Source: Herminiimonas fonticola
GTDB taxonomy: Bacteria > Pseudomonadota > Gammaproteobacteria > Burkholderiales > Burkholderiaceae_D
Direction of reading: 5' to 3'
DNA length: 64,000 nucleotides
NCBI RefSeq assembly: GCF_003293745.1
Contig: NZ_PTLZ01000002.1
Coordinates: 124,001-188,000 of the forward strand
Shown here: piece by piece, positions 6,343 to 10,000 of the stretch
Numbering within the stretch: the stretch's first letter is position 1
Layout: each line of letters starts with the position of its first letter
Notes under the pieces: generated by a model
Seen by the model: only the letters and a program-made list of their open reading frames with translations
What the model was told of the DNA's origin: nothing
Database searches by the model: none
Made by a program: the position numbers and the translations under genes

Positions 6343-7803
6343 ATGACTCCATTTGAACCAAATCTGAAAACCCTTGCCGTTGCGCGCGATGTATTGCTGA
6401 CGCCTTTCGGCCTGGACGAATCCATCCTGATCAAGACCTTGGGAACGATGTTTACGCATCGCGTCGATTACGCAGATTTGTATTTCCAGTTTACGAAGAG
6501 TGAAGGCTGGAGTCTGGAAGAAGGCATAGTCAAAACCGGCAGCTTCTCTATCGACCAGGGTGTCGGTGTGCGCGCGGTATCCGGCGACAAGACAGCTTTC
6601 TCGTATTCGGATGAAATCTCCGAACGTGCATTGAATGAAGCAGCGATTGCGACGCGCACGATTGCGCGTCAGGGCGCAGGCAAGATCAAAGTGGCTTCAG
6701 CGATACAACAAGTAGGTGGTCGCGATCTGTATTTGCCGAATGATCCATTGACATCGCTGGACGCAACAGAAAAAGTAAAACTGCTGGAAAAAATCGAACG
6801 CATCGCACGCGCAAAAGATCCGCGCGTAGTGCAAGTGATGGCTGGCCTCGCTGGTGAATACGATGTCGTTCTTGTCGTACGCAGTGATGGCGTGTTGGCC
6901 GCTGATATTCGTCCACTGGTGCGTGTCTCGATCACAGTGATTGCAGAACAGAACGGTAGGCGCGAAATGGGTTCCAGCGGTGGTGGCGGTCGCTACAGCT
7001 ATGGCTATTTCAGTGATGAATTGCTGGAGAAATATGCGAGCGAAGCTGTCGCTTCCGCACTGGTCAATCTTGAAGCGCGTCCGGCTCCTGCCGGTCCGAT
7101 GACAGTCGTACTCGGACCTGGCTGGCCAGGCGTGTTGTTACATGAAGCGATTGGCCATGGACTGGAAGGCGATTTCAATCGCAAGGGTTCCAGCGCATTC
7201 TCCGGTCGTATCGGTGAACGCGTTGCTGCCAAAGGCGTGACGGTAGTCGATGACGGCACCATCGCCGATAGACGGGGTTCGCTGAACATCGATGATGAAG
7301 GCAATCCTACCCAATGCACGACGCTGATCGAAGACGGTATCTTGAAGGGCTATATTCAAGACACGATGAACGCACGCTTGATGAAGATGCCTGTCACAGG
7401 CAACGCGCGTCGTGAATCCTTCGCGCATCTGCCTATGCCGCGTATGACGAATACTTACATGCTCGGTGGCGACAAAGACCCGGCGGAAATTCTGGCATCG
7501 GTAAAAAATGGTTTGTACGCAGTCAATTTTGGCGGCGGTCAGGTCGATATTACCAACGGCAAGTTCGTGTTCTCGGCGAGTGAAGCCTACATGATCGAAA
7601 ACGGTAAAGTCACGTATCCGGTCAAGGGTGCAACCCTGATCGGTAACGGTCCGGATGTATTGAACCGTGTCTCGATGATAGGTAACGATATGCGCCTGGA
7701 CAGCGGTGTTGGCGTTTGCGGCAAGGAAGGTCAGAGCGTGCCGGTAGGCGTCGGTCAGCCGACCTTGCGCATCGACGGCGTGACCGTAGGCGGAACGGCT
7801 TGA
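6343..7803 (+). CDS. tldD: Metalloprotease TldD
   Basis: 486-residue TldD subunit of the TldD/TldE (PmbA) peptidase, which degrades unfolded peptides and matures some ribosomally made peptides. The zinc site HExxxH is at residues 267-272 (HEAIGH), and the C-terminal glycine-rich block with [14 protein letters not shown] matches TldD rather than TldE. The ATG at 6343 has no strong ribosome site but fits the family N-terminus (FGLDESIL). No tldE/pmbA is present in the window. A hairpin (arms 7810-7818 and 7834-7842) directly after the stop may end the transcript. Confidence 0.95.
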
Positions 7804-7809
7804 TGTTTG

Positions 7810-7842
7810 TTGGCATTCTTCCAAAATTTGTTTGAATGCCAA
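7810..7842 (+). terminator. Hairpin after tldD
   Basis: Inverted repeat TTGGCATTC / GAATGCCAA, a perfect 9-bp stem with a 15-base loop, begins seven bases after the tldD stop. The T-tract after it is weak, so this may be a 3'-end stabiliser or an inefficient terminator rather than a strong intrinsic one. Confidence 0.45.
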
Positions 7843-7922
7843 GCCATTTTCCAAGCTTTTCTTGCCAAATCACCTGAATTATTGCAATATTACCGACAGA
7901 TCAAACAGAATTCAGTATAGAT

Positions 7923-7994
7923 ATGACTGCTTCGCGCTTCCAATTTTATTTTTACTTTAGCTATTCCAGCCCAACGGCGGTGGAGAAGCGGTAA
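7923..7994 (+). CDS. Putative Phe/Tyr-rich leader peptide of aroG
   Basis: A 23-codon reading frame (ATG 7923, TAA 7992-7994) starting MTASR and continuing FQFYFYFSY, then SSPTAVEKR. Residues 6-14 hold four Phe and three Tyr, far above chance, and the products of the shikimate pathway that AroG begins include exactly these amino acids. The codons after the run (Ala-Val, 7977-7982) overlap the GGCGGT segment (7976-7981) that can pair with ACCGCC (8035-8040) and thereby block the terminator before aroG. This is the classical layout of a leader peptide for ribosome-mediated attenuation. No good Shine-Dalgarno sequence is seen before the ATG, which is the main weakness. It is shorter than usual gene-finder limits. 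Confidence 0.72.
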   Translation: MTASRFQFYFYFSYSSPTAVEKR

Positions 7995-8057
7995 GCGCGC
8001 AGGTAAAAAAGCTTAAACCGAAATTCTTTAAATAACCGCCCGCGATGGCGGTTTTTT
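7976..8057 (+). promoter_or_regulatory. Transcription attenuator in the aroG leader
   Basis: Three short segments can pair in two exclusive ways. GGCGGT at 7976-7981 (inside the leader peptide) is complementary to ACCGCC at 8035-8040, forming an antiterminator. The same ACCGCC, extended to AACCGCC from 8034, pairs with GGCGGTT at 8047-8053 around a six-base loop, followed by a T-tract, forming an intrinsic terminator. A ribosome stalled at the Phe/Tyr codons (7938-7964) would leave the first segment free; one that reaches the stop codon would cover it. The terminator ends about 35 bases before the aroG start. Confidence 0.7.
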
Positions 8058-8092
8058 ATTTTTTGCAGAACAGATTTTGACCGGAGAAAAAC

Positions 8093-9157
8093 ATGCCACG
8101 CACAGATGATTTACGGATTAAAGAAATGAAAGAATTGACACCGCCGTCGCATTTGATCCGCGAACTGGGCGTTTCCGAAAAAGCAGAGACGACCGCTGCC
8201 GATGCGCGCATTGCATTGCATCGGATCTTGCACGGCCAGGATGATCGTCTGATGGTGGTGATCGGGCCATGCTCCATACACGACACCACAGCTGCGATGG
8301 AATACGCAAATCGTCTGGTGAAAGAACGTGCACGTTTTGCCGGTGAACTGGAAATCGTGATGCGCGTCTATTTCGAGAAGCCACGCACCACGGTCGGCTG
8401 GAAGGGTTTGATCAACGATCCGTACATGGACAACAGCTTCCGCATTAATGAAGGTTTGCACATTGCGCGTGAACTGCTATTGAACATCAATGAACTCGGC
8501 CTGCCGGCGGGTACTGAGTTCCTTGACGTCATCAGTCCGCAATACATTGCCGACCTGATCAGTTGGGGCGCGATCGGTGCACGCACGACAGAATCACAGA
8601 TTCATCGCGAACTGGCTTCCGGTTTGTCCTGCCCTGTCGGTTTCAAGAACGGTACCGACGGTAACGTGAAAATTGCAGTCGATGCGATCAAGGCTGCATC
8701 GCAGCCGCATCATTTCCTGTCAGTCACCAAAGGTGGTCATTCGGCAATCGTTTCGACCAGCGGCAATGAAGATTGCCACGTCATTTTGCGCGGCGGTAAG
8801 ACGCCTAACTATGATGCAGTCAGTGTCGAACAAGCTTGCAAGGATATCGCAGCGAACGGCCTGGCATCGCGTTTGATGATAGATACCTCGCACGCCAACA
8901 GCTCGAAAAAACCGGAAAACCAAATCCCGGTGTGCGCTGATATCGCAAAGCAGGTTGCCGGTGGCGATACGCGTATCGTCGGCGTGATGATCGAGTCGCA
9001 TCTGGTTGCTGGTCGCCAGGATCTGATTCCGGGCAAGGAACTGGTTTATGGTCAATCGGTAACGGACGGTTGCATCAGCTGGGAAGATAGCCTGGGTGTA
9101 TTGGAAGGCTTGGCAGAAGCGGTCAAACAACGTCGTCTGAAAGATCCGGACGCATAA
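8093..9157 (+). CDS. aroG: 3-deoxy-7-phosphoheptulonate synthase, AroG type
   Basis: First enzyme of the shikimate pathway (phosphoenolpyruvate plus erythrose 4-phosphate to DAHP), class I, 354 aa as in E. coli AroG/F/H. Visible signatures are GPCSIHD (residues 58-64), the YFEKPRTTVGWKG block, GARTTESQIHRE, and the C-terminal DTSHANSSKKPENQ and MIESHLVAGRQ segments. The ribosome site CGGAGA precedes the ATG at 8093. The leader upstream carries a Phe/Tyr-rich peptide and a terminator, so expression is probably tuned by charged tRNA-Phe and tRNA-Tyr supply in addition to any feedback inhibition. A strong palindromic terminator follows. Confidence 0.97.
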   Translation: MPRTDDLRIKEMKELTPPSHLIRELGVSEKAETTAADARIALHRILHGQDDRLMVVIGPCSIHDTTAAMEYANRLVKERARFAGELEIVMRVYFEKPRTTVGWKGLINDPYMDNSFRINEGLHIARELLLNINELGLPAGTEFLDVISPQYIADLISWGAIGARTTESQIHRELASGLSCPVGFKNGTDGNVKIAVDAIKAASQPHHFLSVTKGGHSAIVSTSGNEDCHVILRGGKTPNYDAVSVEQACKDIAANGLASRLMIDTSHANSSKKPENQIPVCADIAKQVAGGDTRIVGVMIESHLVAGRQDLIPGKELVYGQSVTDGCISWEDSLGVLEGLAEAVKQRRLKDPDA

Positions 9158-9200
9158 GCGATAGCAGTAGAAGCAGTCGCAGAACTTGCAGCAGAAAATA

Positions 9201-9233
9201 AAAACGGGCACTGAATTCAGTGCCCGTTTTTTT
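9201..9233. terminator. Bidirectional terminator between aroG and the aspartic protease
   Basis: Perfect palindrome AAAACGGGCACTGAA / TTCAGTGCCCGTTTT followed by further Ts. It has A-runs on one side and T-runs on the other, so it can serve both the rightward aroG and the leftward protease gene. Confidence 0.9.
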
Positions 9234-9246
9234 ATTGCATCCGACT

Positions 9247-9879
9247 TTAATATCGTTTGGTCAAAACCATCTGTTCGCCTTCGCGTCGCATCTCGGTACG
9301 ATTCAAAAAGGACATGCCAAGCAGGGCAAAACTCAAACCGTTTTCCTGCACCAGCGCATCGACCTGGTTCAAGGTGATATCGCCTATCTTGACTGAATTC
9401 AACACCACCTGATACGCCGTTGTAACGCCGTTCGCCGTATTGACGTAGGCAGTCTGGCCTTTCTTGTAATCGATGCCCAAACGCCTTGCATCTGCGGCTG
9501 GCAAGGCAATCAGGGACGCACCGGTATCCACTAGCATGCGCATCGTGCCACCGTTGATTTGCCCTTGCACCATGAAGTGACCGCGGCCATCCGCTTGCAA
9601 AGTCACGCTGCTGGGGCCGGACGGAGCAATACGATTGACGTGTCCACCTATATCGATTTTTTGTTTTTTGCCGCTGGCATCGAAGGTTGCAGTGGTTTCG
9701 TTGACGTCGACCAGTTTGATACCGGAGGTCACCGTATTGCCGACCGAGTAGGTCTTCGGCGAACCGCCATCGATCACCAGCACGGCCTTGCCGGGGAAGA
9801 GGCCGATAACACTGATATCTGCCGCCTGGACTTGCAGCGCGGTGCAGCAAAGAATGGATGCGATCAGGGTACGATTCAT
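9247..9879 (-). CDS. Exported retropepsin-like aspartic protease (clan AA, TIGR02281 type)
   Basis: 210-residue protein with a signal peptide (MNRTLIASILCCTALQVQA, then AD) and one aspartic-protease motif, VDTGAS with D118, in the C-terminal retropepsin-like domain (about residues 100-205). A single DTG per chain implies dimerisation for activity. The start is placed at the ATG at 9879, because it gives a proper signal peptide; longer in-frame extensions begin with unrelated sequence. Residues 21-95 form a small beta domain typical of this bacterial family. The function in the cell envelope is unknown. Confidence 0.85.
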   Translation of the reverse strand: MNRTLIASILCCTALQVQAADISVIGLFPGKAVLVIDGGSPKTYSVGNTVTSGIKLVDVNETTATFDASGKKQKIDIGGHVNRIAPSGPSSVTLQADGRGHFMVQGQINGGTMRMLVDTGASLIALPAADARRLGIDYKKGQTAYVNTANGVTTAYQVVLNSVKIGDITLNQVDALVQENGLSFALLGMSFLNRTEMRREGEQMVLTKRY

Positions 9880-10000
9880 GGCAGATGTCGTTGATATGAA
9901 AACAATGATTCTGTCACGAAATGTTCGTGATTTGGAAGGAAACGCGATGCCGCGATGAGGGCAGCAACAAACTGTCGCTAAATTGCCCAATATGGAAGAA

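Follow-up and report, generated by a model that had tools for sequence, protein, structure and literature searches.

The enterobacterial attenuators of pheA (with its leader pheL) and trpE have an anatomy that provides the natural point of reference here: a leader ORF is followed by segments of RNA that can pair as a 1:2 protector, a 2:3 antiterminator or a 3:4 terminator, and such classic attenuators act during transcription. One leader may also sense several amino acids, as do those of ilvGMEDA and thr. Control of the shikimate pathway is usually taught from E. coli, where it is attributed to repressors together with feedback on the three DAHP synthases. A survey of attenuators in proteobacteria from 2004 reportedly covered the gamma and alpha groups.

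As regards the published literature, the accessible part of PMC5343134 describes trp and pheA as carrying attenuators. Nearer to the present case, the accessible part of PMC1173090 gives (in its Table 7, from an automated database) putative attenuators in Vibrio before aroA(I alpha)Y > tyrA, while the Bordetella parapertussis row of the same table concerns a gyrA-serC-aroQ-pheA-tyrA cluster and not aroG. A motif termed uORFC-13-1, found upstream of aroF in Acholeplasma and represented by 24 sequences from Acholeplasma and environmental DNA, is proposed in the corresponding part of PMC8632094 to consist of a uORF with Phe coding and a terminator, and its authors refer to an older hypothesis that E. 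coli aroF is attenuated. For the groups considered here no description of an aroG leader peptide was found in the open-access literature, where the accessible portions of PMC2965389, PMC5688073, PMC4603805, PMC4035088, PMC5343134, PMC7011215, PMC1173090, PMC8632094 and PMC4833913 mention no such leader for them; an automated prediction elsewhere, in subscription papers, supplements or databases, is possible.

The locus in question lies in a 64,000-nucleotide stretch of DNA from Herminiimonas fonticola, analysed as a whole and referred to below as the window; the genome from which it comes is of 3.1 Mb, and its nearest named relatives are Herminiimonas and Oxalicibacterium. We consider it highly probable that a ribosome-mediated transcription attenuator of the trp/phe type controls aroG here, aroG being the sole DAHP synthase found. 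The grounds for this are the anatomy of the locus, its conservation, the coding selection in its leader, its position at aroG and a fold that agrees with most of the ribosome positions modelled. The individual features are collected in Table 1.

Table 1 Features of the aroG leader region, in window coordinates.
Feature	Position	Strand	Basis or remark
Predicted sigma-70 promoter (TTGCCA, 17 nt, CAATAT)	7862..7890	+	conserved block
Leader peptide ORF, MTASRFQFYFYFSYSSPTAVEKR	7923..7994	+	23 codons, ATG start
Outer helix, 5' strand (encloses control codons; partner 7990-8005)	7928..7941	+	minimum-energy fold and swap test
Control codons (Phe x4 and Tyr x3 in nine codons)	7938..7964	+	aromatic runs also in relatives
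Segment 1, 5' strand of protector (1:2) hairpin (partner 7981-7989)	7960..7968	+	fold, pair counts
Segment 2, antiterminator arm GGCGGT, inside leader ORF	7976..7981	+	GGCGG after run in relatives
Protector hairpin, 3' strand	7981..7989	+	fold
Outer helix, 3' strand	7990..8005	+	fold, swap tests
Intrinsic terminator AACCGCC-CGCGAT-GGCGGTT (segments 3:4)	8034..8053	+	hairpin and pair counts
Segment 3, ACCGCC, common to antiterminator (2:3) and terminator (3:4)	8035..8040	+	sequence, fold
T-rich tail of terminator	8054..8063	+	sequence
aroG Shine-Dalgarno GGAG	8083..8086	+	sequence
aroG, class I DAHP synthase, 354 aa, monocistronic by layout	8093..9157	+	profile matches

An attenuator had originally been predicted from the letters of the window, and the description of the site on which that idea was founded stands: four Phe and three Tyr codons do occur among nine consecutive codons of a 23-codon frame, exactly as had been read, the positions given for the two GGCGGT segments (the second being 8047-8052, followed by a T run) and for the ACCGCC for which they would compete are all correct, and the gene directly downstream is indeed a DAHP synthase (DAHP_synth_1 / AroG by profile match). 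Within the leader the Phe codons are numbers 6, 8, 10 and 12 and the Tyr codons numbers 9, 11 and 14; the first GGCGGT begins 12 bases past the end of the last of these (7962-7964). Two elements, the protector hairpin and the outer helix, are additions to the scheme as first proposed. In the aligned loci 86% of cells in the protector pairing are paired, and four of its nine pairs have changed on both sides.

The device would work as follows, the transcription start, leader translation, actual termination and response to tRNA charging being steps that we infer. RNA polymerase would start about 25 nt before the leader ORF. When Phe-tRNA and Tyr-tRNA are both plentiful, a ribosome would reach the stop codon and cover segment 2, leaving segments 3 and 4 to pair as the terminator, so that transcription would stop near 8060; with no ribosome on the leader, the protector hairpin and outer helix would sequester segment 2, and the terminator would form in that case too. 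When either Phe-tRNA or Tyr-tRNA is scarce, the ribosome would stall at the Phe or Tyr codons and the protector would open, upon which the freed segment 2 would pair with segment 3 ahead of the synthesis of segment 4; the terminator would then fail and aroG would be transcribed. Since the same device precedes the same gene in many relatives, it very probably serves, to judge from these sequences, to raise the aromatic pathway when Phe or Tyr runs short.

AroG has a single match in each of the 13 genus genomes, among which there is no class II DAHP synthase (0/13) and no TrpR (0/13), while PF18024, which we take to be the TyrR-type HTH, is absent from the matches in the genome of the window and matches in five of the 13, three of them over the cut-off. 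Taken together, these results make it very likely that aroG encodes the single entry enzyme of the pathway and does so without the E. coli repressors. The gene appears from the layout to stand alone, because the next long ORF taken as a gene sits on the other strand. Between the convergent ends of aroG and that part of the minus strand occupied by the ORF 9247-9990 there is a 14-pair hairpin (AAAAACGGGCACTGAATTCAGTGCCCGTTTTT, 9200-9231) with A and T runs at its two ends, which is probably a two-way terminator.

As to initiation, a start of transcription about 25 nt before the leader ATG would be expected from the predicted promoter. A block consisting of TTGC[CG]A, a spacer of 17 or 18 and a -10 element TATAGT or CANNAT (mostly TATAGT) occurs at 56 of 60 GGCGGT-type loci as against 17 of 3000 mononucleotide shuffles, figures that must be read in the light of how the -10 pattern arose: a first version matched 23 of 62 loci, and the wider one used here was fitted to sequences already seen. 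The lack of a Shine-Dalgarno sequence before the leader ORF, recognised at the outset as a caveat, is real in the window and common to its relatives: a match of at least four bases precedes the leader start at only 6 of 71 loci, compared with 34 of 53 for aroG itself.

That missing signal would suit another reading, in which the ORF is a chance one lying between tldD and aroG beside an ordinary terminator for upstream transcription, with no regulation involved; tldD (6343-7803, coding for a TldD-type peptidase), the gene before the leader, does run in the same direction as aroG and would profit from a terminator. What decides against this is how regularly the arrangement recurs. A sample of 202 aroG upstream regions was assembled from 80 named loci, 13 genus genomes (including that of the window) and an order set of 100 best and nine second DAHP-synthase gene copies obtained by even sampling of Burkholderiales; these regions are not all independent (L018 and L095, for instance, are identical over the part compared). 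Small ORFs in which five or more of ten codons stand for Phe, Tyr or Trp were found in 129 of the 202; dinucleotide shuffling gave 45 of 1010 and the reverse complements 16 of 202. The count was, for such an aromatic ORF combined with a terminator, 115 of the 202, compared with one of 1010 shuffles. A stricter pattern, written after the sequences had been seen, required an aromatic run, GGCGG within the ORF and a CCGCC...GGCGG-T terminator; it is present in 122 of the 202 regions (115 of them distinct), and in none of 2020 shuffles and none of 202 reverse complements. Together with the coding selection, the GGCGG that follows the run and the model matches at aroG described below, and with conservation across 13 sampled families of the order and into a second order, these counts leave the chance reading with almost no likelihood of being correct, and on the strength of the shuffles and reverse complements we have rejected it.

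Broken down by set, the strict pattern occurs at 77 of the 80 named loci, all 13 genus genomes, 32 of the 100 best copies sampled in the order (failing at the other 68) and none of the nine second copies, and it is present in 13 of the 32 sampled families of Burkholderiales. Loss of both the codons and the paired segments in close relatives had been named beforehand as an outcome that would refute the idea; both are in fact kept in the named and genus loci to the extent just given. In the window itself, where the scan covered approximately the initial 63,700 bases of either strand, the pattern occurs at this site only.

Several of the exceptions deserve brief mention. L041 misses the strict pattern owing to a variant terminator; L116 and L177, both from the order set, have leader and terminator with no exact GGCGG after the run and were scored as misses; and L076, an apparent miss when 400 nt upstream are considered, does have the element within 600 nt. 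At L051 (Candidatus Burkholderia humilis), also a strict miss, the reading frame shifts out of the usual PLADREG register once past the aromatic run, and the core and terminator are still present. At L018, the third of the named misses, and L095 (genome G110), which do not differ over the last 140 bases compared, aroG begins 36 nt downstream of the stop codon of a tldD-like ORF and has no attenuator; this may be a natural loss of the element, and could show how aroG manages without one.

The leaders themselves vary a good deal in what they encode. Aromatic runs such as FYFYFSYSSP, FYFYFFWYLRP, FYFFFYFWSYL, FFFFFYYFP, YFFWFWFP and SFYFWYYFPKP differ in order and make-up, and among 71 dereplicated leaders 34 have Phe, Tyr and Trp, 34 have Phe and Tyr, two have Phe only and one has Phe and Trp; inspection by eye of the order-sample rows revealed no clear pattern relating Trp codons to the number of DAHP synthase copies. 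That the run is selected as coding sequence is evident from the single-base codon differences within it, of which the share that are synonymous is 0.73 in the leader frame as against 0.18 and 0.20 in the other frames for 21 Burkholderia-type leaders, and 0.48 as against 0.31 and 0.33 for 45 leaders of the GGCGGT type. There is in addition a marked preference for TTT: at the 53 loci with a full aroG, Phe is encoded in the leaders by TTT 188 times and TTC 64 times (188/252), and in aroG by TTT 67 times and TTC 277 times (67/344). Either slow decoding or else avoidance of structure would account for this.

The GGCGG core accompanies the run almost without exception, following it at 117 of 119 loci that had been picked solely for the run, compared with 840 of 11900 (7%) shuffled segments. 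Counted from the first base of the final aromatic codon, it starts at 8-20 nt, most often at 14 nt (53 of 115 loci), which is approximately where the front edge of a stalled ribosome would lie. The core is read in three different frames, giving an AVE/LAE type in 104 cases, GG in nine (two of which fail the strict test) and RR/WR in four, while the C-termini of the leaders differ between families (PLADREG, AVEKR, IGGG, SHRRAK). No NCBIfam model names the leader peptide.

These last observations also bear on whether the peptide might itself be the active agent, stalling its ribosome in the manner of TnaC or the Erm leaders in response to a free small molecule, for instance an aromatic amino acid. 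An aromatic-rich peptide would suit such a role, as would the similarity of C-termini within Oxalobacteraceae (PTAVEKR, PKAVE); yet between families the C-termini diverge and the core is carried in three frames, so that it is the RNA and not the end of the peptide that is kept, and the F/Y/W run varies both in length and in order. Nascent-peptide arrest was judged unlikely chiefly for the reason that the RNA core is carried by C-termini in three frames, and we would call it very improbable.

In order to evaluate the pairings of the proposed attenuator, use was made of swap tests, in which each segment is compared when paired with its own partner and with the partners of other loci, since a per-locus shuffle of the core against the terminator arm is weak for single loci (77 of 110 reached p<=0.05, that of the window giving 0.055). 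Over 71 loci, with kinship among them uncorrected, the z values were -5.7 for the outer helix, -4.0 for 1:2, -5.5 for the antiterminator and -10.5 for the terminator, with 0 of 5000 permutations in each case, whereas five far or unrelated pairings gave -0.8 to +0.2. Of three controls with reversed partners two were near zero, the third being that for the outer helix (-2.3 over all loci); in the GGCGGT group, which is Oxalobacteraceae-like, the outer helix gave -5.9 and its reversed control -4.1. Neither the 1:2 nor the 2:3 pairing stands out within this same type (+1.0 and -1.2), because the segments barely vary there; in the other families the corresponding values are -2.1 and -5.1, with -1.9 for the outer helix.

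It must be remembered that covariation cannot test the antiterminator core, which is invariant in both alignments at least partly by construction, the rows of A1 having been picked for a CCGCC...GGCGG terminator and the loci of both A1 and A2 selected for GGCGG and CCGCC. In A1, 84% of cells are paired, compared with 30-59% in slid versions, while nine pairs have changed on both sides as against eight in the best slid version, and such cells number 32 as against its 36; in A2 the core is invariant and the flanking pairs alone covary.

The behaviour of the switch was examined in a folding model in which all RNA 5' of the front edge of the ribosome (set at A-site +12) is removed and the transcript ends before segment 4. 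For the window, the modelled probability of the antiterminator is 0.91-0.95 with the ribosome at codons 8-14 (from the second Phe to the last Tyr), zero from codon 15 on and 0.01 for RNA free of ribosomes. For codons 1-7 it ranges from 0.43 to 0.84, the lowest value being that of the first Phe codon, and the non-aromatic codons 1 and 7 give 0.84 and 0.79, implying that in the model it is position and not the identity of the codon that decides. Setting the edge at +10 or +14 leaves the picture unchanged, while +8 lowers codon 8 to 0.55 and +16 loses the last Tyr. Over 70 loci the mean is 0.89 for the stalled state, compared with 0.36 (median 0.01) without a ribosome, and the stalled value is the higher in 65 of them; in the model, then, the protector hides the antiterminator arm in the untranslated RNA of the window, a behaviour that is not uniform across the 70 loci.

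The model thus reproduces the two states originally envisaged, in which a stall would free the antiterminator and completion of the leader would mask segment 2, with the proviso that the zero obtained with a ribosome at the stop is built in, since all RNA 5' of the front edge has been deleted; at 24 of 115 loci the core lies at least 25 nt before the stop and would be exposed again with a ribosome there. Competition of the first GGCGGT with the 3' arm of the terminator for ACCGCC is likewise upheld in silico. In the full-length fold of the window at equilibrium the terminator is favoured (0.89-0.99) for stalls before codon 13, from which it follows that the switch would have to act during transcription, with the antiterminator forming before segment 4.

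One might instead suppose that the leader controls translation of aroG, by re-initiation or coupling, and not its transcription, given that 98 nt lie between the end of the leader ORF and the beginning of aroG and that uORFs can couple. However, aroG has its own GGAG Shine-Dalgarno, frequently matched at other loci as noted above, and the hairpin is followed by a T run typical of terminators, while the pairing excludes the aroG Shine-Dalgarno; translational control is on this evidence extremely unlikely, and it is attenuation of transcription that we take to apply.

How widely the element is distributed was assessed with a covariance model (R1) built from the 71 dereplicated loci. One strong full-length match per genome (E 1.3e-8 or better) was obtained in 109 of 116 genomes of the family, a share that is somewhat flattered because some of these genomes (G012, G018, G067 and G144), probably along with close kin of others, contributed sequences to the model. 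In all except two of the 109 genomes this hit is on the same strand as the best AroG match and precedes it by 20-121 nt (median 37); in G226 and G190, among the AroG matches listed, the best match, or any match, is not on the contig concerned. Second matches in the family genomes are weaker (38.6 bits and below, among those listed), many being partial or on the opposite strand. The notion that the element is shared with other genes was considered and dropped, given that strong matches occur once per genome and, in 107 of 109 cases, at aroG.

Against Rfam 15 the region 6500-9500 of the window gave 13 matches at E<=5; all of them fell short of the gathering score, and no amino-acid leader was among them (one, RNAI, overlaps 7953-8059 with E 1.7 and 19.6 bits as against the 47 needed), and nine loci gave no matches at gathering scores. 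With a strong match in so large a share of the family and no accepted Rfam family, many genomes could be re-annotated at once.

Outside the order, an even sample of the class (274 genomes) gave strong matches in one other family (two genomes), and in the order to which that family belongs 15 of 81 genomes, from three families, have a strong full-length match. The 12 loci read from this order (L214, L215 and L223-L232) have leaders of types such as MNAARASFYFWYYFPKPLAEEGLRSP and MNRAATYFYWYYFPSPRAVEGRPVRV, and by eye the downstream translation of every one has an AroG-like N-terminus (TDDLR...). At L219 (genome G448) there is a weaker match (E 1.4e-5), with the leader MSHSTVHQKLNRKAAFKQAVACFFYFSFFSPALGG, a different candidate core (CTGGG with CCCAG) and a short T run, located upstream of what by the look of its translation is a DAHP-synthase-like ORF with a prephenate-dehydratase-like ORF nearby; it is possibly the same idea in other letters.

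A further role might in principle exist alongside attenuation, in that the terminated leader RNA or the peptide could also act in trans, attenuation then being only part of what the element does. Termination would yield a discrete RNA of about 160 nt, and there is a precedent in the trp leader peptide peTrpL of Sinorhizobium meliloti, as given in the accessible part of PMC7298713. The sequence diverges, on the other hand, outside the core, the run and the terminator, and we assign such a role a rather small probability.

If the sequences and the folding model are any guide, aroG in this genus carries an RNA switch that appears to read the charging of aromatic tRNAs directly, and the natural variation in F, Y and W codons makes it easy to test how several tRNAs are weighed by a single leader. 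More broadly, it is moderately probable that in Burkholderiales and a second gammaproteobacterial order DAHP synthase stands under one aromatic-run attenuator and not under repressors of the TyrR/TrpR type, and that this combines the charging signals of tRNA-Phe, tRNA-Tyr and, in roughly half of the leaders, tRNA-Trp, tuned by the Phe codon TTT; if so, it would be, to judge from the open-access literature, the first leader described as sensing Tyr, and all three aromatics together, by ribosome stalling.

Set beside the systems with which we began, the aroG leader resembles the Vibrio case in being a predicted attenuator before DAHP synthase, and differs from it in lineage and operon and in that no leader peptide is described for Vibrio in the accessible part of the source. 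Like uORFC-13-1 as proposed, it has a Phe-coding uORF and a terminator before a DAHP synthase gene; that motif, compared here through its description in the accessible text, belongs to another bacterial group and has at least one Phe instead of a long mixed run. The ilvGMEDA and thr leaders differ in using branched-chain and Thr/Ile codons and in preceding other genes. With pheA (pheL) and trpE it shares control codons for a product of the pathway, the same three pairings, a T run and a biosynthetic gene immediately following; unlike them, it has as its target DAHP synthase, with which the whole pathway begins, and its run mixes Phe with Tyr (and with Trp in many relatives), with the core GGCGG lying inside the ORF. 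The mechanism, in other words, is a classic one, and what is new is the target, DAHP synthase, and the mixture of Phe and Tyr (and Trp) codons.
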